Below are positions 16,702 to 57,380 of a stretch of DNA of 57,506 bases, piece by piece (positions within the stretch are counted from its first letter, which is position 1; each line of letters opens with the position of its first letter). Both the position numbers and the translations under genes were made by a program. A model generated the notes under the pieces. That model was given only the letters and a program-made list of their open reading frames with translations. It did no database searches and had not been told where the DNA came from. Source of the stretch: a virus; IMG/VR virus record IMGVR_UViG_3300032322_001172, positions 1 to 57,506 of that record; one strand, given 5' to 3'.

Positions 16702-16709
16702 TATTTATT
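16702..16709 (-). promoter_or_regulatory. putative late promoter box (AATAAATA), too close to the first ATG
   Basis: Seven of eight bases match TATAAATA. The box overlaps the end of the giant gene and lies 4 bases before the first ATG of the 221-residue gene. It would suit a start at the internal ATG (16676) better. It could equally be a chance match in AT-rich DNA. Confidence 0.3.
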
Positions 16710-25700: not shown

Positions 25701-28700
25701 TTCTAAAGGCCCATTCCTCGTTGAGTTTAATACTGTCTGTACCGGATCTACTTAATTTGTCAAAAACTTTTGTTATGGCATTTTTAGTGCCTTTTTCTCT
25801 AATAAATCCTTGATAAATTCTAAACTGAGTTACTTGATCTTCTGCCATGTTTTGCAGATAATCTCTAGTTTGATATCCTATCGCATGTCTGGCCAACATT
25901 CTTTGGCTGGCACCTAGACCTTCAGAGGCTACATCGTAATAATCATCGATTTGATTAATTCTATAATCAAAATTCGCAATTAGTTGTTTTTCTGGTTTAC
26001 TATCTAATTTGGTCCACTTAGTATCGTCGAAAGTTTCAACGCCTACTTGATTTTCTAAGCTAGTCCAATTATAAGATCTATAAGCAACAATATCACCTAG
26101 TCTATAATCTTTAAAAGGTTGCCAAACTTGAATGTTAACATTGTCAAATAAGAATCCCGGGCTAGTGTAGTCTCCATCCCAATCAACTGTTCTATATCCC
26201 TGAACACGCATTCTTTCTTGTCGGTATCCAGTAGTTTTATCATAGATAATATCATTGAATACTGTCCTATCTTCAAATACTGTAACATGTTCTTTTAAAA
26301 CATAATGTGTTCGGAAAAAATAAATTCCATCAGTTGTATTAGCATTTGTAGATAGTGTTAATGATTGAAATTCTCTATAAACATTTATCAGATCAGGACT
26401 TAAAATTTGTCCGTCATCGCGTAATATTCTATATTCATAAAATCCATCTAAAAGATTATCCGACACACCAATTGGTATAGTAACTGCAATTTTTTTAGAT
26501 ATCGGAGAAAGTGCGATTATCGATCCGTCTGCCCAATTTTGTCTTGTCCAGAACATAAATTCTTTACAGCTTGTAGTCCAATCATATGACTGGGCTAGAT
26601 CTCTGTCGTAACCGTCAAATATAAATCCTTGAGATTTCAGATACTGCTCGTAGCCTAAAAGAAAATCTACAACATCTTGTATCTTTGTAAGAACAGTTCC
26701 ATAATATAGCTGTTTAACAAACATCTCGTTAAATGCTCTTCTTCTATAAGCATCAACACTGCCTACTAACGGAACTTTAGGAACTTTTTTCCAATTCACA
26801 ATTTCGAAAGTTTCTGTACTAGTATGTGTCTTAATCGCTCTATAAAAATCTGTTCTATATCTTATTAGCTGTCCATTACTATATAGAGTATCTGAACTCC
26901 AATCTTTAAACTGTTCGCTGATTCCACCAACTTGTATTAACGGATCTTTTTGGCTAGGTACCGCTTCAAAGTAATTAAAGTAAGGTTTTAAATCGTCATA
27001 ACCTCGTAGTATCCAACCTTTATTTGTTTTTTCTATTACTACACCACTATAAGACAAAGAAAAAATTGGCGCACTGACATTAAAAATTATATCGTAGTTT
27101 TCGCCGGGTATGAAAATACTACTAGTCGAGGACTTAGGACTCTTGCTGTCTAACAGATATTTCTGCTGATCTTTATCAACAAATCCTGACAATCGATGAG
27201 ATAGATTGACATCGATGCCAAGCAGTTTATTATCTAACACAGAGGTTGAGATTTCTTTTGATCTTAGATAAGCTCTAATATATTGAACTATGCCGCTAGA
27301 TAAACTAGAATTTTCGTTTGAAACTAAATCTTCTATTTTAACAAATGAATTTGTTTTATTAGAAATTACTTGACCTATTTTGTTAAATTTACTCTTCGAA
27401 TTATCGTAATTTCTAGAAATAAATTCAAACGGTCTTAATAAGCACATGGCAATTGTAAATGCGAATGGCCACTCGGAGGTTACTCTCCATGCATATTCAA
27501 CTGGTCCTTCGTCACCTAATGCAAAAGGTCCAGAATTATTAATCAAACTAAAATTAGTAGCGACATTTGAAGCGAGCGGGTTAATTAACTCTCCGGAATC
27601 ATTTACAGGAATATGCGATAACAAGGACGGTCTTTGATATCTTTCATATCTTCCTGCTCTAGGCCCTTGTCTAATAACACCGTCTCTTAGATCTTCCCAT
27701 AATAGCAAGTTTTGATTTGTATAGGGAGGCGCTCCGTATTCTTCTTCCCACCAATCAGGTTTTTCACTAAATCCTAACATTTCCCACGGTCTAGTATGAG
27801 GCTTGTCCGTGTCAAAGAACCAATGATAGACTCCTCTCCAATATCCAGGCAGTCTTCTGGTTTGTGTTGGATCTGTCATCCTATTATAGGTATAGGTAAA
27901 TGCATTTTCAGAATCATAAAACCCATTATCAATATAATTGATATTGGTATTCTGCACCCATTTTAAAAATTCTTGTGTTACTATTTTGTCTATTTGAGAT
28001 TTATCATAAACACTATTGCCAAAATAACCGCCAGCAATCTTATCTGTGTCATTAAATTGATAATCGTATTTTGATTTAATATTGTTATAGATTCTAAATT
28101 CGAGTTCTAGAATAGCATCGTCTCTATAATCGCCGAATGTATCAATAAGGCTACCGTCGTGACCCTGTATTACTTCTTTTGGACTTTGATAAGTATCGTC
28201 TACGAATTTAAAAGGCGTGTACTTTTTGTATAACCCAAGAGATGTAGGAGTTGGAGGAATATAGTTAAATGCTGTCGATACATATTCTCTAATTTCTACA
28301 AGATCTTTTTCGACTAATGGGTGTAGTATTCTAACAAAGCCAAAATTATTATCGAATACATAATCTTTTTCATTTATTAATTGCTTTTTGTTTATGTAAA
28401 CATAAACTGCTCTCTTGCTTAATTCATTGAGAGTAAACTTCTCAGATAAGGCATAAGTTGTTATTCCTTCATCTTCAACTTCATAAGATATTGTAGTGTA
28501 GGCTCCGCTACCTATCATGTCTGATGAAGAATAAGGGCTAGCAGAATTTTTAGTTTTCGACCATGCTTCAATAATGTCATCGACGAAATCAACCGGATTT
28601 CCGGGATATTCTAATTCTGCTGCTAGTGTAAGAAACGCATTTTTAAATTCAGTATACGATTTTTTGGCGAATTGAATAGATTTAATTACATTGATTTCTT

Positions 28701-31290
28701 TATCGCAGGTTAATGCTAATCCCATAGGTGCTGGGAAAGAATGTTTTAAAAATCTATTGGCATAATTTTGATAACCAGAAATATCTCTTAAATTAGAAAC
28801 TCCAGGTAATTTTCCTTTGAAATCAAAATTAAATTCTATAGCAGATGAAATATGGTCTACTGCCTGTCCTAGAGTAAATGTTTGCAAATCATTATTAAGA
28901 GGATTTTTTTCTAATCCTAGGGGTATTTCATAATATCCTTGATCAGGAGGAAGTTCTGTAATAATTTTTATAGATACTATATCATCCTTTTGAAAAGAAG
29001 TTTCAAAAGTAAATGTTTCTCTATTTCTAGTATACGGCGAAGATAATTTTCTACCGTTAAGATAAAAATTAACTATAGATGTCTTTTCATCAAAATAATC
29101 CCAGTTAACAGTATACAAATTTATTGAATTAGTTTGTTCATCAATTGTTAAGCTATCTACTATTGGTTGATTAAACTTTTCATTTAATGTAGTCCAACCG
29201 TTTGCAAAACTATTATCATTGAAAAGTTGATAATAACCAGTTTTCACATTTATAGAATAAGGAACTCGATCGATAGAATAATCAAATTTATCTTGTTCCC
29301 AATTCCAATCAAACTGTATATCTCCCACATTATCAATGTTGAGATAACTTATAGGAAATCCTAGCTCTGTATCTTTTGGTCCGTTTCCGAGTTTATAAGA
29401 TAAAATTTTAGTTCCGGCGAACGAAGAATTTGGATACTTGTCTAAATCTGAAAAACTAATACCTTGCTCATCAAAAGCATTAAACAACGGAGATTGATTC
29501 ACCTTGGTTTTTCTTTGGCTTAATTTCCATTGACTTCCATCGTAGTGATACATCAGTCCTCTATTGCCGCTAGCTTGAGGTAAATTTCCTCTTCTAACTA
29601 AAACAGATTCTCCTTCTATCGGGTCTGAATCTTCAGTTGGGATTAACGAAATTTGTCTTCGATTATTATGCTGAATGAATTTAACTTTATAAATTTTATT
29701 ATTAACTAAACTATCCTCGTCTGCTATAATCAATAATCTTGCGCCGTCGAATAATGGTTCTCCCTCAACTGTGAATCCGAGGCTTCCTTCTATCTTAGAA
29801 AAAACATCTGTGGTAAATTTGTCGATAAAATCAACCGGAGTTTTAGATCTAAATCCATGATTATAAAGTTTTATAGACTTTGTAAATTCTATAATCGGAC
29901 GACGGGCTCTTACTGATTCGTCTGCGGTAAAATCTTGCCCTCGCAATTTATAAGCATATTCAAGAACTGATCTATGGAACCATCTATTATATCTACTCCA
30001 CGGGTTATTGTCTCCGCTATCTCGAGCAATGGTGATATAATCTTTATATTTGGCTACTTCAGTTGCATCGTCAAATGGCTGCATATCAAATCCCGAGCCA
30101 TCAAATACAACTTCTTCTTCTGCATTTTGTATTCCTGTAGGAACAAGTCCTTGAACATTAGTTAAAGTAATTGCTGTACCAACACCTTCAACTAACCAAC
30201 TACCGTGGGAATAGATAGAAGGTGTAACCTGACCGATAAATTCTACTACTAGTCCATTAGTAAAAACTATACCGTTACTACTGGTATAAGATTCTTTTCC
30301 TAATACTTCTAGTTCAATATTAATTTTTGTACTTTCTTCTATATTGGCGATAATAAATTTGCCGAATCTGTCAGGATTTATTTTACTTTGATAAAATAAA
30401 ACATCAGGAGCATCATAGGGAACTTCAAATGTCAATATCCCGTTCTCTATCCCGTTGTTGGTTATTCCCTGATCATAATTCAAAACACTTGCGCCAGACA
30501 CTTCGTCTATAAATTCCCAGTTTTCAGAATCAAGATCGATCGTACTTCCGTCTGGACTGATTGCAACCCTAGCTCTCCATAGCTTGTTGTCAAATACCAC
30601 TAAGGATCCGGGTGCATATGGTAGAATAGGATTATACAATAATGAGCCGGTATCATAATTTGTTCTTATTAATAATCCTTCGTAAGGAGCATTTATTTTA
30701 AATTTATATGTTTGGCCCCTATATAAAGTAATCGTAGGATTATTTGTAAAAGCATCGGGTGTAAAAATATAGGTACTACCTACTCCTAGTTTAACTGAAT
30801 ATGTGCTTTCAATTGTTGAAGTTTGTCCAAGAACAGTGACTGGTGGGGGACATAATGCCTCCCAGTAATATTCTCTATAGTTAACAAACTTATCCCAGTC
30901 AATTGGCGGATTCCAAGAGTAATGAACTTGCTCTGTGATCTTATCGTCTTTCTCGTCTTCGTTTCCGAAAAATTTTATTTGATTTTTAAAATCTAGATAG
31001 TCATAAAATGCTTGTATTTTATCGTCAGATTTAACAGTTACGCCAACTTCTAACTGATATCTACTTCTTAGAGTTTCATCAGTATCGATGTAAACATCAG
31101 ATCCTTTATAGGTTTTTCCGTATCTTTTTCCTATGTAACCTACAGTTTTTTCTAATGTACCCGGCTGGGTTAACGCATCTAAAGTAGATGATAAAAATTT
31201 ATCGTTAGTTTCTGTCTGAAAAACTCGTGGTAAGAGTTCGACTGTCTTTCTAATAGGAATCTGGCTTACTGGAAAAATCTTTTTACTCAT
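16705..31290 (-). CDS. giant baseplate-associated structural protein (4861 residues)
   Basis: A single uninterrupted 14.6-kb frame, the largest gene here. It directly follows gp6 (1-base gap), the place of the gp7/gp10 wedge genes in T4. The N-terminus (about 1-150) is hydrophilic, with a PRVFQTETNDKF motif and Trp-rich WNPPIDW.kfvNYREYYW. At least seven CBM5/12-like segments of the form Y..G..V.Y....W.a.....W occur near residues 230, 1470, 1740, 2240, 2510, 2615 and 4720. About six FG-GAP/integrin-type blades (GDSFGTSLAMSRDG..lAVGAP and similar) lie between about 2170 and 2900, which suggests a beta-propeller. Two GG.GY..iP.V...G.G.GA.A motifs lie near 3335 and 3700. The C-terminal third repeats fibre-like DG.t..F.l...V.VNG...DY.. 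units. A role as a large tail or baseplate appendage that binds surface glycans is inferred. Confidence 0.75.
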   Translation of the reverse strand: MSKKIFPVSQIPIRKTVELLPRVFQTETNDKFLSSTLDALTQPGTLEKTVGYIGKRYGKTYKGSDVYIDTDETLRSRYQLEVGVTVKSDDKIQAFYDYLDFKNQIKFFGNEDEKDDKITEQVHYSWNPPIDWDKFVNYREYYWEALCPPPVTVLGQTSTIESTYSVKLGVGSTYIFTPDAFTNNPTITLYRGQTYKFKINAPYEGLLIRTNYDTGSLLYNPILPYAPGSLVVFDNKLWRARVAISPDGSTIDLDSENWEFIDEVSGASVLNYDQGITNNGIENGILTFEVPYDAPDVLFYQSKINPDRFGKFIIANIEESTKINIELEVLGKESYTSSNGIVFTNGLVVEFIGQVTPSIYSHGSWLVEGVGTAITLTNVQGLVPTGIQNAEEEVVFDGSGFDMQPFDDATEVAKYKDYITIARDSGDNNPWSRYNRWFHRSVLEYAYKLRGQDFTADESVRARRPIIEFTKSIKLYNHGFRSKTPVDFIDKFTTDVFSKIEGSLGFTVEGEPLFDGARLLIIADEDSLVNNKIYKVKFIQHNNRRQISLIPTEDSDPIEGESVLVRRGNLPQASGNRGLMYHYDGSQWKLSQRKTKVNQSPLFNAFDEQGISFSDLDKYPNSSFAGTKILSYKLGNGPKDTELGFPISYLNIDNVGDIQFDWNWEQDKFDYSIDRVPYSINVKTGYYQLFNDNSFANGWTTLNEKFNQPIVDSLTIDEQTNSINLYTVNWDYFDEKTSIVNFYLNGRKLSSPYTRNRETFTFETSFQKDDIVSIKIITELPPDQGYYEIPLGLEKNPLNNDLQTFTLGQAVDHISSAIEFNFDFKGKLPGVSNLRDISGYQNYANRFLKHSFPAPMGLALTCDKEINVIKSIQFAKKSYTEFKNAFLTLAAELEYPGNPVDFVDDIIEAWSKTKNSASPYSSSDMIGSGAYTTISYEVEDEGITTYALSEKFTLNELSKRAVYVYINKKQLINEKDYVFDNNFGFVRILHPLVEKDLVEIREYVSTAFNYIPPTPTSLGLYKKYTPFKFVDDTYQSPKEVIQGHDGSLIDTFGDYRDDAILELEFRIYNNIKSKYDYQFNDTDKIAGGYFGNSVYDKSQIDKIVTQEFLKWVQNTNINYIDNGFYDSENAFTYTYNRMTDPTQTRRLPGYWRGVYHWFFDTDKPHTRPWEMLGFSEKPDWWEEEYGAPPYTNQNLLLWEDLRDGVIRQGPRAGRYERYQRPSLLSHIPVNDSGELINPLASNVATNFSLINNSGPFALGDEGPVEYAWRVTSEWPFAFTIAMCLLRPFEFISRNYDNSKSKFNKIGQVISNKTNSFVKIEDLVSNENSSLSSGIVQYIRAYLRSKEISTSVLDNKLLGIDVNLSHRLSGFVDKDQQKYLLDSKSPKSSTSSIFIPGENYDIIFNVSAPIFSLSYSGVVIEKTNKGWILRGYDDLKPYFNYFEAVPSQKDPLIQVGGISEQFKDWSSDTLYSNGQLIRYRTDFYRAIKTHTSTETFEIVNWKKVPKVPLVGSVDAYRRRAFNEMFVKQLYYGTVLTKIQDVVDFLLGYEQYLKSQGFIFDGYDRDLAQSYDWTTSCKEFMFWTRQNWADGSIIALSPISKKIAVTIPIGVSDNLLDGFYEYRILRDDGQILSPDLINVYREFQSLTLSTNANTTDGIYFFRTHYVLKEHVTVFEDRTVFNDIIYDKTTGYRQERMRVQGYRTVDWDGDYTSPGFLFDNVNIQVWQPFKDYRLGDIVAYRSYNWTSLENQVGVETFDDTKWTKLDSKPEKQLIANFDYRINQIDDYYDVASEGLGASQRMLARHAIGYQTRDYLQNMAEDQVTQFRIYQGFIREKGTKNAITKVFDKLSRSGTDSIKLNEEWAFRIGRMGGIDEFQELEMELAKDNFKLNPQNIVVLPTGNTANQNYNINQSNFTRFFNGTFTRNINKTSLEEEPKHTPGYVKLDQVEHIVSSRDALLEYDITKVKENDHIWITFDKTSWTVLRFNESPILTIEEIIKDGTTFTITTARRHNLEVGDIVGIDVENLKGFFKVTNNELASTLNTFQIVNTATGPDPKLSTKIANNLRILTPVRFGNYNDIDEESAALLKNNSRLWIDNNGDGTWEVIKKKKQYSSKTISESGIAVPKSLGTKVVYNESLKQSFVSDPGSGVVLIYSEVGNNLNVKQVVTPPFGLDSAVKNSFGNEISISPDNRFLVISAPKASGIPSNFKGDLDKVLFDDGDNDPLTNPPPFADLDIFPNDIYLYRGKLWRAKTAQNIIFDGSTKIDVYTEDWEPAEFIPMNITGTNPGYEQQGVIFIYEYRNLQWEFRNALLSPRPSPGEEFGSKVTIGSNGLDYYMAVSAVGSLQNTGRVYLFNYQQNQSAVESFFGSLCNYNTNTIDFGDPHSYFTGQKVFYFNGTPDGVNVSTQDQPPPPEDNTEFYVIAVDTLRIQLASSIQDARDNLPINLLDIGIDDSSSHTLIREVRQSEWKILENHNYRGIYGEIPRSPTYGSLSLQPAFYPKGSIVYSNGKLWEAQTDTFEDGSTLSIESNDWLEVSNISTSCSLPFNLYLGNDHSTLAQGLLEENQYSELVKEGDSFGTSLAMSRDGSILAVGAPLSDGQYFVNYKGIWRPDVEYVEGQVVKYFDDDLTNSWGYYRLVDDRADQTVDSTVRSYGVKPGDHSSANGFLWDRIGDSTDESVGKVYIYQRNDGGVYKLRQTITSANLADLNDLVEDININVGDEFGYAIDLDYSGTTLVVTSPKADKNFTNQGSVYVFNTNGLANVNYRLKQKLASFEVYPNEYFGQDVSISPYTEKIVVGAKNTKYSLPTILNTYQDYVDARDNGAYYAEYIPATEELAISPTIFDQGKTKFIDQPGFAGAVYVFELKDTKYFLTEKIDTQLSPNESFGNSVDCGSNAILVGSPGYIQPAPHLAILAYDGPITGTARLFTKKEGVSSWEVLTTRSPVVEISKIQSISLYDAEKDVKIQDIDFIDPAKLKILAAAEQEIQYKTPYDPAIYNVGTEEKIIDPSLSWAEKHVGEVWWDTSKAKWLYYEQGDLDYRSGNWGTLAEGAEIVVCEWVETVFLPSEWAALADTNEGLAAGISGQPLHPNDDVYTIKELFNTTTGETTGTKYFYWVKGKVTLPETSNRKLSLANITSYISNPLGSGNAFIAFTSSNSIAAYNFNSVISSDKFYLNIQKFKNRTEANETHNEYFLMTENVASSIPPEKLEVKWIDSLIGYDQAGNRIPDPYLHPKQKYGIEYRPRQGMFVDRLLALRIAIDRINLILQDQPFADLIDFAILNSKDEAPSEVLREYDQIVDTYNDLSTVGVTRLKPGVLRANIINGQIESIDVIDGGFGYKSKEIYDQQRGLFKGPPVEIEGNGTGASAISLINSQGIITEVIVIFKGKKYSTANAKVRNFSVLVVNDETLNNFWSIYSWDSTRKSFFRTRSQAFNTSRYWTYADWWKTGYSDNDRIVREISNISLEPSIKVLVGDLIRIKEYSNGGWAIFEKISDTGIEFTDRYQLVGRQQGTIRFLESLYDPSIEGVGYDNTQTFDTAFYDIDNSKELRNIFRAVKENIFINEYDIEWNRLFFTCLRQVFSEQDYVDWAFKTSFLKASHSVGELEEKFNYKNDNLSSYQEYIDEVKPYRTTVREYLSKYNKTDVQNAGTTDFDLPPTYSSVTNTIINVSPRNSIITDYPWKWWSDNKGYSVVSIQVYDGGSGYTTIPKVSVDGDGVGATARAFISNGIVSGIEVLTRGSGFTQAPNVTIIGGTLERQAKAAVILGDGKARTFNLKIKFDRITKDGSVKNYNYTQTFIASGFTSVFELNYAPTFDKSQITVYKNDQIVLSSDFNISLFISELESYSLLKGKISFNTVPDKDDRIVVSYEKNSELFDAVSRINKFYAPAAGMANKEPSQLMTGIDFGGVQIQGTTFDVTGGWDALPWFTDNWDSVEASADYYHVCDGDTLDVTLPYTPADGQEINIYIKRLGNYKPGSYDTNEITGRVTYSGEIAEPPAIRIDDPFYNQLDDSSTSANPNAEMPTFIGDGITNTLEIGRYIQTFAGDILIFRPVESDGSVTITDTNLLDTKLSGGSLESTTTGQQVANNTINGIYTTARGIAAEEILIDGEKFVSPDQVPAPEENVPGQVLDSLSIRVFQSSISSVAPVQTRILYGDGVTQIFDIKATIFESKSLRVYVNKVLCDTENTDSTLLYSINFRTNQIEFFNPPPLYSIIEIISIGIGGVSILDYQEQVVDGNENRFLTAANYSSTTAVVTTVNGIATDSGFLNSSEVQGLPAGKTLVEFGQSPPRLARVKILVLGANPNTDITKLTLVRLNNQVSLYDGSTRSIEIENFQNLNRASANSSFIVELNGRYLRGVDTNYYVIEDKYLTIVSTFIGFETVYELSIGTDPSQPPGSILANNLKVFFNDSLAEFITDYVYDGVTKKIIINQEKLNTGDIVKIENDLESEYDIINNNLVVRSTVSLDENDILDITWFDEYPSMKIIADEFIGGKVVYKLPISPVSATYVWVYKNGTRLTQDVDYTVSLPRSTVNFVVHSTQQDIIKIIVFGSSIFRLPSGFEIYKDMLNIYQFKRWSVNEVELVKDLNYFDNEMEVNDASELAEPILTKNIPGVVYINGERIEYLQKNGNILKQLRRGSYGTPIGVLHASGSKVVDVGPNDTLPYNEEQSRNDFVSDGSTLIVGSLDFVPQLADKSRWYASGLYRDRGVFDINTSYSTKDLVSYNSSYYVNVKPSQGVLPNDTATSLWEPITIPENYGPCDMIEVFVAGRRLRKNPASMYEEEISSSSVDGDKVVEAEFTVDGESPTIRLTKPVPAGTRISVIRKLGKIWKDRGTTTIQSGASLLDNNTPVAKFIAQKSTKLPE

Positions 31291-45957: not shown

Positions 45958-45979
45958 AAACGAGCGTTAGCTCGTTTTT
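45958..45979 (+). terminator. rho-independent terminator
   Basis: AAACGAGC-GTTA-GCTCGTTT gives an 8-pair perfect stem with a 4-base loop. The T-run finishes at 45979 and is followed by AAATAAATA. It ends transcription of the upstream region just before the late promoter of the next operon. Confidence 0.8.
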
Positions 45980-45980
45980 A

Positions 45981-45988
45981 AATAAATA
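45981..45988 (+). promoter_or_regulatory. putative late promoter box (AATAAATA)
   Basis: Seven of eight bases match TATAAATA. The box starts one base after the terminator and lies 27 bases before the ATG at 46016. The terminator-promoter arrangement separates the internal-protein operon from the genes upstream. Confidence 0.5.
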
Positions 45989-46015: not shown

Positions 46016-47491
46016 ATGAAACTATCCACCTTATCTGATCCCATATTGTTATTAGAGCAACACATGACTCTAAGTGGTTCGATCCTTAGAGAAAGCTGTA
46101 GTGGGCTGACTATTGAGCAGAGAACTGTTGTAGAAGGAATTTATACCGAACTACGACCTTTAATTGAAGCCAGTCTCACAGCACAACAGATACAATCGTT
46201 GTTTGGCGAAATCGAAAAGACAGCCACAGCAGGTGGTGGTAATAGAACACTGATAGGCAAGGGCGTGGATGTTGCCCGTGCCGCAGACGAAACTGTCAAC
46301 AAAATTGGTCGTTGGCTACAGGATACAACACCAGTTAAGAACTTTGATCAAAAGTTCGAAAATCTCAAAAACACCATTAACAAGAAGTTTCCAGATTCTA
46401 AGATACTAGATGCCATTTCTGAAATGGGCATGTGGGCAGAACGCAATCCTGGCAAGACTGCTGCCATAGTAGGTGTACTTACTGCCATTGCTGGCCTAGC
46501 TGGCGGTCCCATTGGAGGTGCCATTGCTGGTCAGATACTTAGAGGTTCTGTAGAACTGCTCAAAGGTGAAAAACTATCCACTGCCATAGGCAAAGGTATT
46601 AAGACTGCGGCCTATGGCTTCATTGCAGGAAAAACTTTTGAGCTGATCGGTGATGCACTCAGCAGCGGCGCACAGTTGGTCAAAGATACCATGTTCCCGG
46701 GTGCTGTAAGATTGAATATGACACAGATATTTAATGAAGTGGGCGGAGAGATGGGCAGCAGATATGCTGCATTTGAAGTCAAAGGTTTGATTATCAAACC
46801 CGAAGATGCTGCTGATGTCAAGACCTTGTTCAACGATGCTGCTTCTGCATGGAAAGCCGGCGACTATGATCAAAGCGCCAAGGTATGGTCAGCACTCAAC
46901 GACTACATTGAAGGCACACTTAAGAGTCCAGAGTATGTGGCACAGATTGCCGCTGATGCCGACAAGCGACAGATAATCACTCAGGCGGCCAGTGCTGCTC
47001 AACAGGTATTCAAGTTCCTTGGTGCTGCTGCACAAGGTGCTGTGGCTGCTGGCGGAGTTAAAGGATCTTTGGACAAAGGCAAAAAAGAAAGTTATTATCT
47101 ACAGACTAGGCCACTCAGCGAAGGACAGGTTTACCTGCTGTTCAAACGCATCGACGAAGGTGCCATGGATTGGATCAAAACCAAAGCAGGTAACCTTGCC
47201 AATAAGATCACTGTAGACAAACTCAACACTGCATGGAACAACGCAGGCAATCCCACAGATGCTGACGATCTTTACAATGTACTCACTGGTGCTGGCAATG
47301 TACCAGATGATATAGTTGCACAGGCTTACAAGAGTATGAAGATTCCCTATACAGGTGCTCCTGGCGAGCCTCCTGCAGATGGCGGTGCACCGGCGGATAT
47401 CAAAACAGTAATACAAATGGTAGAAAAATTGCCTAAATCTAGAAAGCAGAGACTGCTAAAATACATGGAAAAACAACTAGGGGTAGCCTAA
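46016..47491 (+). CDS. candidate internal/ejected capsid protein with glycine-zipper segment
   Basis: This is a 491-residue protein of no family I recognise. The N-terminus has LLE at 12-14 and, near 20-27, GSILRES. LRE-S fits the T4 prohead protease rule (I/L)-X-E before a small residue. Residues about 140-185 form a hydrophobic Gly/Ala segment (TAAIVGVLTAIAGLAGGPIG and continuing) flanked by charged helices, like the membrane-active zippers of ejected virion proteins. The C-terminus (about 461-491) is a VIQMVEKLPKSRKQRLLKYM helix pair, closely matched inside the next gene. It heads a three-gene operon behind its own late-promoter box. A virion protein delivered with the DNA is inferred. A plain tail protein is the alternative. 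Confidence 0.6.
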   Translation: MKLSTLSDPILLLEQHMTLSGSILRESCSGLTIEQRTVVEGIYTELRPLIEASLTAQQIQSLFGEIEKTATAGGGNRTLIGKGVDVARAADETVNKIGRWLQDTTPVKNFDQKFENLKNTINKKFPDSKILDAISEMGMWAERNPGKTAAIVGVLTAIAGLAGGPIGGAIAGQILRGSVELLKGEKLSTAIGKGIKTAAYGFIAGKTFELIGDALSSGAQLVKDTMFPGAVRLNMTQIFNEVGGEMGSRYAAFEVKGLIIKPEDAADVKTLFNDAASAWKAGDYDQSAKVWSALNDYIEGTLKSPEYVAQIAADADKRQIITQAASAAQQVFKFLGAAAQGAVAAGGVKGSLDKGKKESYYLQTRPLSEGQVYLLFKRIDEGAMDWIKTKAGNLANKITVDKLNTAWNNAGNPTDADDLYNVLTGAGNVPDDIVAQAYKSMKIPYTGAPGEPPADGGAPADIKTVIQMVEKLPKSRKQRLLKYMEKQLGVA

Positions 47492-47493
47492 AA

Positions 47494-48378
47494 ATGAGAA
47501 TACAAGAATTTATCACTGAATCACAGCACACTGAAATCCAACAGCTACAAGAAGGTCCGATCATGAACAAGATTGGTTCTGCTGTGGGCAAAGGTGTTGG
47601 CACATTGGCCAAAGGCGTAGGTGCCGTGGCAGGCGGTGTAGCAGGTCTAGGCAAAGCTATCAAGAAAGGTTATCAAGCTGGTAAAGCACAGGTAGCCACA
47701 GGCGGTGACGACGAAGCTCCAGCACCCGCAGCCAAAGGCACTGGTGCAGGCACACAGGCAGCTCCGCAGGCTGGCGCAGCAGGTGCAGCACCAGGTACTC
47801 CTGATTATCAAGCACCAGCAGCAGCGCCTTCTGCACAGGATATCAATAAACAAGGTCCTGCAGGCACAGCACCTGCTAAAGCACAGACAGGTCAAGCTGG
47901 TATAGCCATGCAGAAAACTGCACAGGCTATGGCTGGTCAAGACAGCGACAAGGCAGGTCAAACACTGTATGCTCAGGTTAAAGCCAATATTGACAAGCTA
48001 GACAAAAAAGGCAAACAGCGTATTCTACAACTGCTACAGAAAAGTGTTGCACAGGCTCCTGCACAACCAGCAGCGGCACCGGCAGCAGCACCGGCAGCAC
48101 CTGCGGCTAAAACAGAACCTGCCACAGGTCCTGGATCTAAAACAGTTCCAGCAGCACCAGGCACAGCACCAAGAACTGAACCAGACTTAAATGCACCAGC
48201 TGCTCCGGAACAGAAACCTGCGGCTGCTGGTAAGAAATCAGCAACACCTAAAAAGAAAGTAGCACCAAGTCAAGCTGAAATTGACAAAGACAGAGAAAGA
48301 TTGATGGGACCAACATCAGATTCTGTGATCCGTACTGGCCCTGTGATTGCCGAAGGATTTACTCTGTTTAGGAGATAA
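47494..48378 (+). CDS. candidate internal capsid protein with capsid-targeting sequence
   Basis: This is a 294-residue Ala/Pro/Gln-rich protein. It starts MRIQEFITES, strikingly like the T4 internal-protein targeting peptide (MKTYQEFIAEA), with ITE-S at 7-10 and a second site LQE-G at 18-21. Both fit gp21-type cleavage. A Gly/Ala/Lys segment follows (about 25-70, IGSAVGKGVGTLAKGVGAVA). Next comes a long disordered Ala/Pro/Gln region, interrupted at about 157-187 by VKANIDKLDKKGKQRILQLL, which matches the C-terminus of the preceding protein, and then a basic Pro/Ala/Lys tail. It lies two bases after its neighbour. The role as a packaged protein comes from this N-terminal match and is an inference. 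Confidence 0.62.
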   Translation: MRIQEFITESQHTEIQQLQEGPIMNKIGSAVGKGVGTLAKGVGAVAGGVAGLGKAIKKGYQAGKAQVATGGDDEAPAPAAKGTGAGTQAAPQAGAAGAAPGTPDYQAPAAAPSAQDINKQGPAGTAPAKAQTGQAGIAMQKTAQAMAGQDSDKAGQTLYAQVKANIDKLDKKGKQRILQLLQKSVAQAPAQPAAAPAAAPAAPAAKTEPATGPGSKTVPAAPGTAPRTEPDLNAPAAPEQKPAAAGKKSATPKKKVAPSQAEIDKDRERLMGPTSDSVIRTGPVIAEGFTLFRR

Positions 48379-48379
48379 G

Positions 48380-48757
48380 ATGAGAATTAATGAACTGATC
48401 AACGAAGCAGGTCTTATTGGAAAATTAGGCAGTGCTGTAGGCAAAGCTGCTGGTGCCGCACAAGGTGCGGTTAGCAAGATTGGCAGTACTGTAGGTAAAG
48501 CCGGGCAAGCTGTAGGCAAGACTGCTGGAGTAGCTGTCGGTTTAGGTCAAGAATTCAAAAAAGGTGCTGAGAAATGGCAGGGCACCGGAGCTAGTTTAGC
48601 TCCTAATCAGCAAGGCGGTAATAAAGCTGCTGCACAGAAACTTCCCGGTGATGTTGACGAAAACGAACTAAGAGATTTATTAAATGCTGTGTTGACAGGC
48701 AAACAATTAAATCCAGAACAGCAAAAAGTCGCACAGCGAATGAGAAACGAAGTTTAA
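48380..48757 (+). CDS. small candidate internal capsid protein, paralogue of the preceding gene
   Basis: This protein has 125 residues from the ATG at 48380, one base after the previous stop and preceded by AGGAGA, which decides against the in-frame GTG at 48347. The N-terminus MRINELINEAG again has a targeting-peptide look, with INE-A at 7-10 as a probable prohead-protease site. A Gly/Ala/Lys region follows (IGKLGSAVGKAAGAAQGAVS, then VGLGQEFKKGAEKW), parallel to that of the 294-residue protein. A C-terminal helix (ENELRDLLNAVLTGKQLNPE) follows. It ends convergently against the minus-strand tail gene, overlapping by 4 bases. Confidence 0.6.
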   Translation: MRINELINEAGLIGKLGSAVGKAAGAAQGAVSKIGSTVGKAGQAVGKTAGVAVGLGQEFKKGAEKWQGTGASLAPNQQGGNKAAAQKLPGDVDENELRDLLNAVLTGKQLNPEQQKVAQRMRNEV

Positions 48758-49896: not shown

Positions 49897-52800
49897 ATGG
49901 CCAATCCTGTAATAATTGATATACCCGGCGTAGGACCAGTCGAAGCTACCAATGCGGCCACTGAACAAACACTTAGAGATATATTAAAAGCTATTCAAAA
50001 AGGTGGGTTAAACAAAGGCGGTGGAGGTGCGGGCGGTGCTGCTGGATTGCCTGGTAATCTTTCTGGCGGTCTAAGCGGTGTAGGAAAATCTTCTACAGCC
50101 GTAGGCAAAGCTATGGGTGGTCTGGTTGGCAAACTTGGTCTGGTTGCTAATGTAGCTGGACAGGTAGCTATGAAGTTTCTAGAAGTTGGTGCTGCATCTG
50201 CAAAACTTATCAAAGAGTTTTCGAATGTAGGAGACGATCTAGAAGCCGCAGCAGGAACATTTAAGATGATTCCTATAGTAGGCGGAGTTCTAGCAGACAG
50301 CTTCGGAGCTGTTGCACAAGCCTCACAGAAAACCGCTAGAGCTTATCAAAGTGCTGCATCTGCTGGCGCAAGTTTTAATGGTAGCATGAATCTATTTGTA
50401 AAAACTGCCAGTCAAGCAGGTCTTACTATGGATCAGTTTGGTGCATTGGTTGCCAAAGGCGGAGAAGGCCTTTTAGCACTAGGTCCTACAGTAGAAGAAG
50501 GTGCTAAAAGATTTGGAGCAGTGTCTAAGCAACTAAGAGCCACAGGCAAAGACTTGTACGCTCTGGGCTATTCTACAGAACAAATTAACGAAGGCATTGT
50601 TTCTTACGGAAAATTATTGCGAGCACAAGGTCTAGCAAGAGGTCAATCGGATGCACAATTAGCTGCTGGTGCAAGAAATTATCTTAAAGAAATGGATGCA
50701 CTGGCCAAAGTTACAGGCATGTCAAGACAAGAAGCCGAGCAGGCTTTGTTACAACAACAACAAGATGCTCAATTTCATTCTTACATGTCAAATAAGAATA
50801 AAGATGTACGAGATTCATTTGCAACATTATTAACAACTGCTAATAAAGCTTCTCCTGAATTAGCAGCAATGATGAAAGACTATGTCACTACTGGTAGCTT
50901 TACCAATGCAGAACATGCAAAAACTGCATCATTGATGGGAGAAGGTGCTCTGTCTGCACTACAAGAGCTACGAAGAATGTCAGAGTCTGGAGAAAAAATA
51001 AGTGCAGCAAAACAAGACGCTATCTTTAGACAACTGGCTGCCGCCGGCAAACAAATGCAGTCAAATTTCGGTGAAACTTTAGCAGCCACCGGAGGAGAAT
51101 TTGATCATGCTATCAAGGCTCAAATTGGTCTAAACAAATTAGAAGAACAGTCTTTAGAAGCAGCTAGAAAATCTCAAGACAAGGCTGCACAGAATCAGGA
51201 AAAGTTAAATCAACAAATTGAACAGGCTAAACAACGATTAGCTGCACTTTCTAACTCGTTTACTATGACTCTAGTCAACAGTGGCATGTTAGACAAATTA
51301 TTAAAAGGGTTTGAATCGTTAGCTGAGTTTGTCAATACTGTAGTAACACCAATTTTCCATGCATTTATGGGAATAGTAGGACCTCTGGTAACTTTTCTTG
51401 CTAATGTCTTTACACCTATTTTTAAAACATTAAGCAACTTAGTAGAAACGATATTGATGCCGTTTAAGTATCTTGGCTACCTATTTGACAGTGTAGCCGG
51501 AGATACCAGTCTTGTAAAGCTAGCAATGGAAGCATTGCTATTCCCTCTCAATGTTCTTATTGGCACAGTTAGACTAGCATTTACAGCTATGATGAAAATC
51601 TATGATACTATAGAAGATTTTCTAAGTCCTATGTTTTCTTTTCTTGGTAGAATGATTGACAGTGTAGGCAGAACCATTAAAGATTTTTTCAAACCTGTCA
51701 TCGAAGATGGTGCAACATTTTTTAAGAAAATAATGAATGCATTAGGATCAGTATTGAATCCAGTAATTGAAGTTTTTAGATCAGTTAAAAAAGCAGTAGG
51801 TGATGTTTTTAATTCATTTAATTCGTTTGGAGAAATAATCACAGGAATTAAATTAGCCTTTAAGAGTCTTGGATTAAACATCAAAGAAATGTGGTATGCT
51901 ATTAGAGATACTATACCGGGTCTAACTGATACATCTAAAGAAGAACGAGATGCACTAGAAAAAGAAAAACAAGCCCTTGTAGATGAAAAAGCAGCCTTCG
52001 GTAGCCAATTAGAAAGAAATAGAATAGAAAACCAAAAGAAAGAAGAAGAAAAACAAAGAGACAGAGATCGTAGAAGAGATGAACGAGATAAAACTTGGAA
52101 TGATCTTAGAACTCAGAGAGAAACAGGCTACTATAATGATAGAGTGGCGCATGCCAAAGCAGAAGCTGATGCTAAAAAGTCAGTAGATTGGAACGATTCG
52201 TTATCGGTATTGAAATACCATCAAGGTCTACAAGGCCAGCCAGGCTCTTCGTTGCCAGGTGCTCCGGGTGCAGCAACTACTCCTGCACAAATAAGTCAGA
52301 GCACAGCACAAAACATGGAATTGATCAAAGCAGCCTTGCAAAAACAAGGTATAACTGATCCTAAGTATATTGCCGCTACATTAGGCAATGTAATGAAAGA
52401 AACAGGCGGCAAGTCGATTTCAGAAAACATGAATTATGGTGGTACTCAGAATTCTCGTATTAGAGATATTTTTGGATCTAGAGCAGCCAAATATTCAGAT
52501 GCTGAACTTGATGTAATCAAAAAAGATCCCACAAAGATGGGAGAATTAATGTACGGTTCAGGAACAGCTATGGGCAAAGCTCTGGGCAACACCGAACCAG
52601 GAGATGGGTGGAAATATCGCGGTCGAGGATTCATTCAGCTTACAGGAAAAACAAATTATGCCGCAGCTTCGAGAGCTATCTACGGTGACAATAGATTAGT
52701 TGATAATCCAGACCTAGTAAACAATCCTCAAGTCGCAGCCGAAGTTAGTGCTTGGTACATGAAAAAAGGACAGTCTAGCATGGCTGGCAAATTGGGCATT

Positions 52801-53223
52801 AATACTGCTAACATGACTCAAGCTGAAGCCAACTTGTTAGCAACCTCTCAGATTGCTGGCGGAGACATTAGAAAGAAAGGCAAGATTGGTGCAGAGATCT
52901 CTGCCAAAGTAGACACATATTCTGCTCAGATGGCTAACATTGCAGGAGCACCTGTAAACACTCAAGTAGCATCATCGAGAACTGATATGGAAAATTCCAT
53001 TGCTGCTCAAAAACAAGCTGCACAACAAACTGCTCCTAGTGGAAAGAAAGACGACACAACCGCTTCCCCAGGTCCTAGAACAACTCAAGAATCAGCAGAA
53101 TCGTTGTTAAGTAGCTTAAATACTAAGATGGATATGCTTATTAGAGTCACTTCAGATCTCAACAGAGTAAATGAACGACAATTATCAGTACAACAAGGTC
53201 TCAGCGGTAACCTGTTTGCATAA
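49897..53223 (+). CDS. tail tape-measure-like protein with C-terminal GH19-type peptidoglycan hydrolase
   Basis: This is a 1108-residue protein. The N-terminal two thirds have tape-measure traits: Gly/Ala-rich hydrophobic helices (about 60-150), long helical Gln/Lys/Glu stretches (about 270-450), several hydrophobic segments (about 460-600) and a charged coiled coil (about 684-745). After a Pro/Gly/Ala linker comes a hydrolase domain (about 805-1030) with GNVMKETGGK (putative catalytic E835) and YRGRGFIQLTGKTNY (909-917 core), the signature of GH19 chitinase/endolysin enzymes. A short helical tail (MDMLIRVTSDLNRVNERQLS) ends the protein. The hydrolase would open the cell wall locally during DNA entry, a job T4 gives to gp5. 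It follows the divergent promoter gap and precedes the portal gene by 16 bases. Confidence 0.8.
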   Translation: MANPVIIDIPGVGPVEATNAATEQTLRDILKAIQKGGLNKGGGGAGGAAGLPGNLSGGLSGVGKSSTAVGKAMGGLVGKLGLVANVAGQVAMKFLEVGAASAKLIKEFSNVGDDLEAAAGTFKMIPIVGGVLADSFGAVAQASQKTARAYQSAASAGASFNGSMNLFVKTASQAGLTMDQFGALVAKGGEGLLALGPTVEEGAKRFGAVSKQLRATGKDLYALGYSTEQINEGIVSYGKLLRAQGLARGQSDAQLAAGARNYLKEMDALAKVTGMSRQEAEQALLQQQQDAQFHSYMSNKNKDVRDSFATLLTTANKASPELAAMMKDYVTTGSFTNAEHAKTASLMGEGALSALQELRRMSESGEKISAAKQDAIFRQLAAAGKQMQSNFGETLAATGGEFDHAIKAQIGLNKLEEQSLEAARKSQDKAAQNQEKLNQQIEQAKQRLAALSNSFTMTLVNSGMLDKLLKGFESLAEFVNTVVTPIFHAFMGIVGPLVTFLANVFTPIFKTLSNLVETILMPFKYLGYLFDSVAGDTSLVKLAMEALLFPLNVLIGTVRLAFTAMMKIYDTIEDFLSPMFSFLGRMIDSVGRTIKDFFKPVIEDGATFFKKIMNALGSVLNPVIEVFRSVKKAVGDVFNSFNSFGEIITGIKLAFKSLGLNIKEMWYAIRDTIPGLTDTSKEERDALEKEKQALVDEKAAFGSQLERNRIENQKKEEEKQRDRDRRRDERDKTWNDLRTQRETGYYNDRVAHAKAEADAKKSVDWNDSLSVLKYHQGLQGQPGSSLPGAPGAATTPAQISQSTAQNMELIKAALQKQGITDPKYIAATLGNVMKETGGKSISENMNYGGTQNSRIRDIFGSRAAKYSDAELDVIKKDPTKMGELMYGSGTAMGKALGNTEPGDGWKYRGRGFIQLTGKTNYAAASRAIYGDNRLVDNPDLVNNPQVAAEVSAWYMKKGQSSMAGKLGINTANMTQAEANLLATSQIAGGDIRKKGKIGAEISAKVDTYSAQMANIAGAPVNTQVASSRTDMENSIAAQKQAAQQTAPSGKKDDTTASPGPRTTQESAESLLSSLNTKMDMLIRVTSDLNRVNERQLSVQQGLSGNLFA

Positions 53224-54965: not shown

Positions 54966-55211
54966 ATGCTTCTAAAAGAATTTTTTTATTTTAGCGATAA
55001 AAACAATGACTTTGCTACGGATCGCAGGTACGATGCCGGCAGAGATCAATCTGTGGTCAAAAAAGAAGATACTCGAAAAATAAGGCTGACACTCCGCCAA
55101 ATTAATCAACTAAGACTAGCTGCTGAAGCGCATGAGGTCGAACAGCAATCAGAGCTAGATTTTATTAGACAAATGTACGGAACTCCAGTTGAAGCCGCAT
55201 CAACCGAATAA
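54966..55211 (+). CDS. small conserved head-operon protein (gp20-gp21 interval)
   Basis: This protein has 81 residues from the ATG at 54966, chosen over an earlier in-frame start that would overlap the portal gene by more than 100 bases. It begins MLLKEFFYFS and has a conserved-looking KIRLTLRQINQLRLAAEAHE helix, then ELDFIRQMYGTP. Similar small genes directly follow gp20 in related phages. Its place corresponds to the T4 gp67/gp68 prohead-core genes, but it lacks their acidic character. There is no clear ribosome-binding site. Coupling to portal translation is likely. An AATAAATA at 54954-54961 is too close to serve it. Confidence 0.65.
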   Translation: MLLKEFFYFSDKNNDFATDRRYDAGRDQSVVKKEDTRKIRLTLRQINQLRLAAEAHEVEQQSELDFIRQMYGTPVEAASTE

Positions 55212-55827
55212 CCCCGCGTTCGTTCTAGGTAACGGAAAAAGCAGATTAACAGTAGATCTAAACTCATTATTAAGTTTAGGCACAGTCTACGGATGTAATG
55301 CTATCTATAGAGAAGTTGATCCCCATTTTCTAATAGCAGTAGATGTAAAAATGATCAACGAAATCATTGCAGCCGGCTATCATAAAACACATTCTGTCTG
55401 GACAAATCCAAATAAAGGTGTCAGCAGTAAAGCACATATAAACTTTTTTAATCCCCATAAAGGCTGGAGTTCCGGACCAACAGCATTATGGTTTGCCTGC
55501 ACTCAAGGACATAAAGAAGTGTATATTTTTGGCTTTGACTACATGGGTCATAATGGCAAATTCAACAATGTGTACGCTGATACCTATAACTATAAAAAGA
55601 GTACAGACACAGCTACATTCTACGGAAATTGGTTAAATCAAACAGAAAAAGTTATTAAAGAATTTAGAAAAATTAAATTCTATAGAGTAATTAATCGAGG
55701 CGATTTTATGCCAGATAAATTGGGACCTTTGTTGCCTAACCTCGAGCATATCACTTATGACGAACTAGCAAAAAAATTTCCAATTATTATATATTCCGCA
55801 GAAAACGATCAAAAAACTACCATTTAA
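55189..55827 (+). CDS. MptE-like/glycosyltransferase-like protein of unknown substrate
   Basis: This protein has 212 residues from a TTG at 55189 that overlaps the preceding gene by 23 bases; the next in-frame ATG is only at residue 55. It has a nucleotide-binding-like FVLGNGKSR (11-19), YGCNAIYRE (34-42), FLIAVDVKM (47-55), a GWSSGPTALWFACTQGHKEV run (92-111) and YIFGFDYMG (112-120). The GNG.S... S(G)PTA....G...i.l.GFD pattern is that of MptE-like/DUF115 proteins and GT42-type sialyltransferases. It could modify capsid or cell-surface glycans. No such gene sits in the T4 head operon, so it is an accessory insertion here. The substrate cannot be read from the sequence. Confidence 0.6.
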   Translation: MKPHQPNNPAFVLGNGKSRLTVDLNSLLSLGTVYGCNAIYREVDPHFLIAVDVKMINEIIAAGYHKTHSVWTNPNKGVSSKAHINFFNPHKGWSSGPTALWFACTQGHKEVYIFGFDYMGHNGKFNNVYADTYNYKKSTDTATFYGNWLNQTEKVIKEFRKIKFYRVINRGDFMPDKLGPLLPNLEHITYDELAKKFPIIIYSAENDQKTTI

Positions 55828-55891: not shown

Positions 55892-56737
55892 ATGGCCGAT
55901 AACAAGATTCTAGAGCAAATGCTTGAGCATTTGGTCAACGACGAAAAAGAGAAAGCTGAAGAGCTTTTCCACGAGTATGTAGTTTCTAAATCACGCGAAA
56001 TTTATGAAACACTCATCGAAGACGAAATCGAAGAAGAAAAAGACGAAGACGAAGATGATGAGGAAGTAAAAGAAGCTTCCGACGAAGAAAAAGACGACGA
56101 AGACGAGGAAGTAAAAGAAGCTTCCGACGACGAAGACATGGACGAAGGTTTTGAAGATATCGCTATCGAAGCCGACGACGAAGAAGGTGACATGGGTGGT
56201 ATGGGCGGAGACGCTACTGACGATCTAGAAGCAGAACTAGGTGACGAAGGCGAAGAAGATCTAGCCGACAAAGAGCCAGAAGAACTATTCCAAGACCTAG
56301 ACGCTATTGTAGACGAACTACAAGCTAAATTTGACGCAATGGGCGGAGAAGAAGGCGGTGAAATGAAAGACGCTTTTGATCCAGAACTAGAAACAGTTCG
56401 TGAATATGTAGAAAAAGTTGCCCCAGCAAAAATGGGTGACAACGGTGTAAACACCAAGTCTATCGTTGCTGGTAAGAATGATATGGGCGGTACAACTGCT
56501 AACATTCTAAGCGGTCGTAACGGTCAGGATGCAGGTACAGTTGGTGCCGGAAACAAAATTAAAGGTTCCGCACTAAATGACCAAAATCCAAAAGAAGATA
56601 ATGCTGGTAATATCAATGTTCCAGGCGGCAAAGCAGGCAATGCTTTTAGCAAGAAAGAGCCAGGACATGGTGCTGAGAAGAAAGGCACTGCTGAACAAGC
56701 TGATAACAAGCAAAGCCTTTTCCGTGGTCGTAGATAA
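55892..56737 (+). CDS. acidic prohead core protein (gp67/gp68-like role)
   Basis: This is a 281-residue protein. Residues 1-45 form a helix (MADNKILEQMLEHLVNDEKE, LFHEYVVSKSREIYETLIED). A very acidic Asp/Glu stretch follows to about residue 135, with two copies of EEVKEASD, then a helix (FQDLDAIVDELQAKFDAMGG), then a Gly/Asn/Lys-rich tail ending in LFRGRR. The position just before gp21, the strong acidity and the helical head suit a prohead core component, like the acidic T4 gp67. It is not a clear sequence match to it. It has its own ribosome-binding site (AAGGAGA) and a late-promoter-like box. Confidence 0.65.
   Translation: MADNKILEQMLEHLVNDEKEKAEELFHEYVVSKSREIYETLIEDEIEEEKDEDEDDEEVKEASDEEKDDEDEEVKEASDDEDMDEGFEDIAIEADDEEGDMGGMGGDATDDLEAELGDEGEEDLADKEPEELFQDLDAIVDELQAKFDAMGGEEGGEMKDAFDPELETVREYVEKVAPAKMGDNGVNTKSIVAGKNDMGGTTANILSGRNGQDAGTVGAGNKIKGSALNDQNPKEDNAGNINVPGGKAGNAFSKKEPGHGAEKKGTAEQADNKQSLFRGRR
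56060..56130. repeat. 26-bp direct repeat, 45-bp period, in the acidic core gene
   Basis: The same 26 bases occur exactly at 56060-56085 and 56105-56130, encoding two copies of EEVKEASD. The period is 45 bases (15 codons), so the frame is kept. A recent tandem duplication is the simplest reading. Confidence 0.85.
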
Positions 56738-56750
56738 TAGGACTATATAG

Positions 56751-57380
56751 GTGAAAACTACTCTATCAGAACACTTGAGTTTTGACCAGGCTAAGATTGT
56801 CTTGGAGCGAGATGAAGGCAGCGACGGTAAAAAGTCGATGCATTTAAATGGCATTTGCATTCAAGGAGACATCCGAAATGCAAATCAACGCATTTATTCT
56901 TCTCAAGAAATTGGCAGGGCTGTCAAGACGCTCAACGAACAGATCTCTGGCGGATACTCTGTTCTTGGAGAAGTTGATCATCCTCAGGATTTAAAAATCA
57001 ATCTTGATCGTGTTTCACACATGATTACCAAGATGTGGATGGACGGTCCTAACGGCTACGGAAAACTTAAAATCCTTCCAACTCCAATGGGTCAACTAGT
57101 ACAGACTATGTTGGAGTCGGGAGTAAAACTAGGAGTTTCAAGCAGGGGCAGCGGCGAAGTTGACGGCAGCGGTAATGTCCAAGGTTTTGAAATTATCACT
57201 GTTGATGTAGTAGCACAACCATCAGCCCCGGGAGCTTATCCTACACCAGTTTATGAACATCTAATGAATAATACAGGCGGCTATCAGGCATATAGAATAG
57301 CACAAGAAGTCAAAGGCGATCCAAAGGCACAGAAATACTTAGCAGAGAGTCTTAAGAGAATTATCTCTGGACTCAAATAA
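56751..57380 (+). CDS. gp21: prohead core protease, gp21-like
   Basis: This 209-residue protein from a GTG is close to T4 gp21 (212 residues). The family's catalytic regions are visible: GEVDHP with H77, and GVSSRGSGEV with S130/S131. Other family signs are GDIRNANQRIY and the VDVVAQPSAPGAY segment. The enzyme cleaves scaffold and other prohead proteins after (I/L)-X-E, and would be the enzyme acting on the candidate internal proteins at 46016-48757. It lies 13 bases after the acidic core gene and 15 bases before gp22. The ribosome-binding site is weak. Confidence 0.93.
   Translation: MKTTLSEHLSFDQAKIVLERDEGSDGKKSMHLNGICIQGDIRNANQRIYSSQEIGRAVKTLNEQISGGYSVLGEVDHPQDLKINLDRVSHMITKMWMDGPNGYGKLKILPTPMGQLVQTMLESGVKLGVSSRGSGEVDGSGNVQGFEIITVDVVAQPSAPGAYPTPVYEHLMNNTGGYQAYRIAQEVKGDPKAQKYLAESLKRIISGLK

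Follow-up and report, generated by a model that had tools for sequence, protein, structure and literature searches.

Three consecutive plus-strand genes, here called p1, p2 and p3, stand in the interval that separates gp46 from the head-tail genes gp26, gp20 and gp21 in a virus record of 57.5 kb (57,506 nt), the whole of which was analysed and is referred to as the window (Table 1). The genes of this region follow the order sigma gp55, gp47, gp46, a 2OG oxygenase, a SegE-like gene, p1, p2 and p3, and then gp26 (on the minus strand), a tape-measure-like gene, the gp20 portal gene, a small protein, a transferase-like ORF, an acidic core protein and gp21. Given that this is the gene order of a T4-like phage, we consider the virus to be one. 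The closest cultured matches of the portal protein are found in Pseudomonas phage PA5oct and its relatives (50% identity), followed by Sinorhizobium phage Phosso and others. PA5oct and Serratia phage BF have the same backbone genes, and the p1-p3 slot is absent from both. A first-pass annotation of the window had described p1-p3 as probable ejected internal capsid proteins encoded near a gp21 prohead protease. The three ORFs are indeed present where it placed them, with products of 491, 294 and 125 aa, and the protease gene is about 8 kb downstream.

Other genes of the window include a single minus-strand ORF of 4861 aa in the baseplate/tail region (16705-31290). The tape-measure-like protein (1108 aa, 49897-53223) carries a GH19/endolysin-type domain (phrog_181, PF00182), that is, a lysin within a tail protein. 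Between the portal and the protease, the ORF at 55189-55827 strongly matches an uncharacterised family and weakly (E 0.004) an alpha-2,3-sialyltransferase PHROG, and its position is kept in relatives.

Table 1. Features of the p1-p3 locus and of the downstream head genes (window coordinates; an arrow marks a predicted cut).
Feature	Position	Strand	Evidence
Hairpin AACGAGC-GTTA-GCTCGTT, terminator-like	45959..45976	+	Most freshwater-type relatives have a comparable hairpin before p1
AATAAATA, T4-type late promoter-like -10 element	45981..45988	+	27 nt before the p1 ATG
p1, probable internal head protein precursor, 491 aa	46016..47491	+	Four conserved gp21-type sites, after residues 26, 51, 369 and 381
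p1 residues 1-26, predicted N-terminal propeptide ending LRE↓S	46016..46093	+	(L/I)xE↓(S/G) kept in 30/33 homologues
p1 E51 codon, candidate site LIE↓A	46166..46168	+	E in 33/33; L/I at P3 in all
p1 residues 145-167, hydrophobic Gly/Ala-rich stretch	46448..46516	+	Hydropathy peak in 33 homologues
p1 E381 codon, candidate internal site IDE↓G	47156..47158	+	27/33 homologues; PA5oct gp257 aligns here with INE↓GPLD
p2, Ala/Pro/Gly/Gln-rich basic probable internal head protein, 294 aa	47494..48378	+	
p2 residues 1-9, putative capsid-targeting peptide (CTS) MRIQEFITE	47494..47520	+	All 32 distinct homologues have (L/I)xE at 7-9
p2 residues 10-20, ending at second site LQE↓G	47521..47553	+	(L/I/V)xE↓G at 14-20 in 30/32
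p2 C-terminal IAE↓GFTLFRR (site at 287)	48346..48375	+	Tail motif in 24/32 homologues; genome-wide C-terminal scan
p3, basic probable internal head protein, 125 aa, putative CTS MRINELINE↓A	48380..48757	+	16 third-slot members aligned
Acidic core protein ending SLFRGRR, just before gp21	55892..56737	+	C-terminus conserved in 26 distinct homologues
gp21-like prohead protease	56751..57380	+	phrog_207, E 8e-57; own C-terminal LAE↓S site

The p1 family is represented in IMG/VR by 124 confirmed encoding stretches (80 kept), at about 25% to 66% identity, and is kept across distant contigs of freshwater and marine type. p1 has no classical CTS ending at residue 9; its first site is the LRE↓S at residues 24-27 that had already been pointed out near residue 26, followed by LIE↓A at 51, LSE↓G at 369 and IDE↓G at 381. 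Among 33 diverse homologues, six glutamate columns are at least 70% conserved, and in four of them (E26, E51, E369 and E381) most members have L or I two residues before the glutamate and a small residue after it, which is not true of the other two. Sites within a few residues of positions 26, 51, 369 and 381 are found in 30, 33, 23 and 27 of the 33 homologues. With gp21-type sites at four of its six conserved glutamates, p1 resembles a precursor that is cut at several places. E26 and E381, which stand in variable surroundings, are the best candidates for cuts. E51 and E369 are embedded in well conserved sequence, six homologues have V instead of A at P1' of E51, and one group has LSED at E369, so a structural (fold) reason for these two glutamates is possible. 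A cut at E381 would release a basic C-terminal domain of 110 aa. The fragment after residue 381 would start G-(P)-x-D, a form like that of p2 after its second site (GPIMNKIGSAVGKG) and of p3 (AGLIGKLGSAVGK). A 19-residue hydropathy peak, mostly of 1.6-2.2, falls at the same Gly/Ala-rich place (about residues 140-170) in all 33 homologues, and we consider the stretch a candidate membrane-contact segment.

The start of p2 is MRIQEFITES in the window. All 32 distinct homologues have E at residue 9 and either L or I at residue 7, with S at residue 10 in 22 of them and N, D or Q in the other 10. The residues of T4 IPIII that count for targeting are 4 and 7, and those that count for processing are 8 and 10 (PMC9026906). 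Taking these roles together with the conservation in p2, we read residues 1-9 as a probable docking peptide and E20↓G21 as the more reliable predicted cut. The mature N-terminus is therefore likelier to be Gly21 than the Ser10 first proposed: homologues frequently carry N, D or Q at residue 10, whereas they retain the second site. The sites listed in the first pass all stand, but they were an undercount, as LQE↓G (residue 20) and IAE↓G (residue 287) are further sites in p2, and p1 has the sites at 51, 369 and 381. The body of p2 is low-complexity, and p2 and p3 both contain GxxxG-type repeats. At its C-terminus p2 ends TLFRR or SLFRK(R) (48355-48375 in the window), and the tail [ST]xhF[RK] is present in 24 of the 32 homologues. 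The acidic core protein has its SLFRGRR end in nearly all of 26 distinct forms, and a C-terminal scan of the window and three relatives returned p2, the acidic core protein and at most one other protein per genome. Possibly, this LFR-type tail is a shared C-terminal core-docking signal. The positional counterpart of the acidic core protein in PA5oct, gp332, is flagged as detected by ESI-MS/MS.

For p3, the ATG at 48380 stands behind AGGAG and gives the start MRINELINEA (the mechanical ORF begins upstream, at 48347). Across the 16 members of this third slot, residues 1-9 have a mean identity of 50% and the bodies one of 28%, and a hydrophobic residue followed by E occurs near residues 8-9 in 15 of them. 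The T4-like targeting starts claimed for p2 and p3 are thus confirmed at the level of conservation, (L/I)xE being found in 32/32 forms of p2 and its counterpart in 15/16 of the third slot. The third-slot proteins have a pI of 8.0-9.9, and the predicted mature fragments of the window's own p1-p3 are basic as well (pI about 8.8-9.9). Upstream of p1, 26 of 49 regions contain a sequence within one mismatch of TATAAATA, compared with 7% of random 80-mers, and this promoter-like motif suggests that p1-p3 may be expressed late.

How often such a start arises by chance was assessed with the pattern M[KR].{1,3}[EDQNH][FILV][ILVM].E[AGSNQ], scanned over the window and three relatives (281, 147 and 111 kb). 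It occurred at none of 2,833 internal methionines and at eight gene starts. Six of these belong to p1, p2 or p3 genes, and the remaining two to small unknown ORFs of the 147-kb relative. These (L194:7867-8253 and L195:8942-9184) start MRIKDVISE↓G and MKINEIIRE↓S, have no PHROG match, and are further candidate head cargo. Site counts per protein are on their own only modestly significant (P about 0.005 for p2 and 0.03 for p1), and for this reason our argument rests on positional conservation.

The sites also agree with what may be deduced about the protease. In T4, internal proteins (IPs) enter the head via a CTS of about 10 aa that gp21 removes at L/I-X-E (PMC9026906; PMC7697877), and the other expected substrates are gp22, gp23 and gp21 itself, including C-terminal processing of gp21 (PMC9026906). 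In relatives whose gp21 is 91-97% identical, gp22 carries six to eight [LI]xE[AGS] sites and the major capsid protein gp23 reads MSQLLE↓SRW...LLE↓GLQ...YLAE↓SA; a C-terminal (L/I)AE↓S is present in gp21 of five relatives. The sites of p1-p3 have the same form, [LI]xE[SGA]. Given this identical site grammar in gp22, gp23 and gp21 of the clade, the specificity of gp21 fits the p1-p3 sites.

To see how the slot evolves, we surveyed 19 loci that had been selected solely for a close gp21 (89-97% identical) and that extended sufficiently far upstream. BLAST recognises p2 in 17 of them. The exceptions are L155 and L167, whose slot genes have no BLAST homology to p2 and yet start with the peptide, reading MRLNQILTED...MLQE↓GP and MRINDILLENKKITE↓AP, respectively. 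In L103 the gene start is cut off, which leaves 18 loci assessable for the peptide, and the slot is occupied in all 18. Where matched over at least 0.2 of its length, p2 is 30-59% identical, against 89-97% for gp21; the few matches confined to the N-terminal quarter reach 68-77%. The constant tag on a variable body follows the T4 pattern. The constant occupancy points to a general role in the head or in delivery more than to an inhibitor aimed at one host, and it suits a general head role no less well than an effector specific to a host. T4 IPs are of variable occurrence, unlike this constantly occupied slot (PMC9026906).

Searches of p1-p3 against PHROG, Pfam, NCBIfam, PADLOC and PDB sequences gave nothing beyond weak, low-complexity or sub-threshold matches, of which one is a low-complexity match of p3 to a tape-measure PHROG (E 0.004). 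This fits the earlier statement that the three are not obvious homologues of T4 internal proteins. One GTDB genome scan found no relative, and no ADP-ribosyltransferase signature was found in p1-p3. The AlphaFold model of p1, built with 33 sequences, has a mean pLDDT of 59 (49 for the C-terminal domain), and Foldseek returned no match at E<=0.001 in PDB or BFVD. The top PDB row, the MakB cytotoxin (E 0.27), was rejected as a generic helix match. So was the VIA-align match of p1 residues 262-351 to MIT-type three-helix bundles (Z 10.7), which is below the level of trust that the tool advises for helical bundles.

A homologue of p1 does occur in a cultured phage. Although tblastn with p1 and four p1 relatives found no match in 50,697 cultured phage records, a p1 profile picked out a single protein of the PA5oct proteome, gp257 (149240-150439), at 36.8 bits, compared with 6.9 bits for the second-ranked protein; the top-scoring reversed sequence reached 11.4 bits, and the highest score among 500 shuffles was 9.9. 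An independent profile search also recovered gp257 (E 1.1e-6) and nothing in five other cultured jumbo phages. gp257 is a remote homologue with sites at aligned places: the alignment to p1 retains IIE↓A and INE↓GPLD, and an LYE↓S at 27 lies just upstream. It differs from p1 in its length of 399 aa and in its location at 149 kb, not between gp46 and gp26. By eye, its neighbours (a nucleotidyltransferase-like protein and small structural proteins) resemble the setting of p1 in the marine-type contigs L005 and L012. The adjoining gp258 has no detectable homology to p2, no recognisable homologue of p2 or p3 stands beside gp257, and no remote match of p2 or p3 was found in cultured phages.

According to its record note, gp257 (YP_010678957.1, 'structural protein') was detected by ESI-MS/MS, a flag that places it in the virion and not specifically in the head. 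The record of gp330, the gp22 counterpart of PA5oct, carries no such flag. This is what would be expected if the scaffold is removed and the cargo kept. Across PA5oct, early sites are enriched in MS-flagged proteins (9/93 versus 13/403 of the other ORFs; Fisher P 0.012), and the full CTS pattern occurs in 2/93 flagged proteins versus 1/403 other called ORFs, too few to prove a rule. The small protein beside the portal is a separate case. In the window (54966-55211) it starts MLLKEFFYFSDKN, and its PA5oct counterpart gp333, detected by ESI-MS/MS, starts MKINDIITE↓G, which suggests that a targeting-like start has persisted in the clade of the window although its cut site has gone.

Taken together, we suspect, with a probability of about 0.8, that p1-p3 form a late operon of probable internal head proteins that are targeted to the prohead and trimmed by gp21, and whose basic products are kept with the DNA. 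We infer targeting, actual cleavage, ejection and, for p2 and p3, a location in the head. Capsid targeting and gp21 processing, as first suggested, are well supported by the conservation of peptide and sites, by the shared grammar of the clade's gp22, gp23 and gp21, and by the MS flag of the p1 homologue in PA5oct. In this scenario, late transcription of p1-p3 would come first. The N-terminal peptide of about 10 residues would then dock p2 and p3 on the gp22/acidic core of the prohead; p1 has a longer propeptide. At maturation, activated gp21 would cut after (L/I)xE, in p2 at 20 (and/or 9) and probably at 287, in p3 at 9, and in p1 at 26 (perhaps also 51) and internally at about 381. The basic fragments would stay with the packaged DNA and, as seems likely, pass into the host with the genome. 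As for their downstream function, DNA condensation or genome delivery is, tentatively, the most likely; our guess would place host takeover second.

T4 gp67 and gp68 are accessory prohead core proteins that shape the head, and p1-p3 could be scaffold of the same sort, chopped up and lost rather than carried in the mature virion. The multiple cut sites of p1 and p2 resemble those of gp22, the C-terminal LFR(K/R) motif of p2 is common to the acidic core protein, and the relatives examined all have a gene in the slot, in contrast to T4 IPs, which vary (PMC9026906). However, the mature parts of p1-p3 are basic, unlike the acidic core protein, and it is the p1 homologue, not the gp22 counterpart, that is MS-flagged in PA5oct virions, which makes this role unlikely. 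We are also doubtful that p1-p3 are ejected host-takeover or anti-defence effectors; the first-pass annotation is partly supported, in its targeting and gp21-processing reading but not in its suggestion of host-takeover effectors. The precedent for effectors is IPI and Alt of T4 (PMC9026906), and fast-evolving bodies behind a constant tag, most pronounced in p3, would suit them. Nevertheless, no defence, anti-defence or fold match supports such a role: PADLOC, Pfam, PHROGs, NCBIfam, PDB-sequence and Foldseek searches yielded nothing significant, p2 is low-complexity, and p1 persists in distant contigs of both freshwater and marine type, which would not be typical of an inhibitor specific to one host, in a clade whose slot is filled in every assessable relative of the gp21-selected set.

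Podovirus ejection proteins insert in the host membrane and help DNA to cross the envelope. A comparable delivery protein could be made of p1, perhaps with p2 and p3, the Gly/Ala-rich stretch being inserted in the host membrane. This would account for a hydrophobic peak that keeps its place in 33/33 homologues, for the GxxxG-type repeats of p2 and p3 and for the conserved presence of the genes. The idea nevertheless appears improbable to us, given that the hydropathy of p1 is only moderate, that its structure model is poor and without a significant Foldseek match, and that contractile-tailed phages are not known to require proteins of this sort. More speculative still is the suggestion that p1 is a head-packaged polyprotein that gp21 would divide into the propeptide, a hydrophobic domain rich in Gly and Ala, and a basic domain at the C-terminus. 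These parts, delivered along with p2 and p3, would build a host membrane/DNA-conduit complex; if true, that complex would be a delivery apparatus in T4-like phages. Finally, the resemblance to T4 might be chance, p1-p3 being tail- or tape-measure-like proteins of low complexity in which glutamates stand at these positions by coincidence. Apart from the weak tape-measure match of p3, the data speak against it: the CTS pattern has a background of 0/2,833, conservation is position-specific, and an N-terminal peptide conserved among divergent homologues refutes an explanation that we find barely credible.

If p1-p3 are indeed internal head proteins, the T4 rule of a short N-terminal tag cut by gp21 would extend to a large group of uncultured T4-like viruses. 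Given that the tag can be read from sequence alone, internal head proteins could be listed in viruses that were never grown. New families can be named as likely head contents, including p1, which occurs in more than 100 viral contigs and whose tested members have no library match. PA5oct provides a cultured phage in which this main family can be tested.

With IPI, IPII and IPIII of T4, p1-p3 share basic mature bodies, a gp21-type protease, a late-promoter-like element and an N-terminal peptide of about 10 residues that ends in (L/I)xE before a small residue, with a constant tag and a variable body (p3 above all). They differ in that the family libraries detect no relation between the bodies, that the p2 propeptide usually has two cut-like sites, that p1 is large, with four conserved sites of which one would release a C-terminal domain, and that the clade keeps the cassette in one fixed slot. 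In T4, Alt is processed at both termini (PMC9026906; PMC7697877), and p2 likewise has candidate sites at both ends, whereas the ADP-ribosyltransferase signature of Alt was not found in p1-p3. The inner-body and ejection proteins of phiKZ and SPN3US are similar in being head proteins trimmed by a prohead protease, with redundant sites in their propeptides (PMC9026906, PMC10052503). These phages belong to a different lineage, and the SPN3US propeptides are mostly much longer (111-254 residues). Compared with these systems, p1-p3 are probably new families within a known kind, that of tagged internal head proteins processed by gp21.
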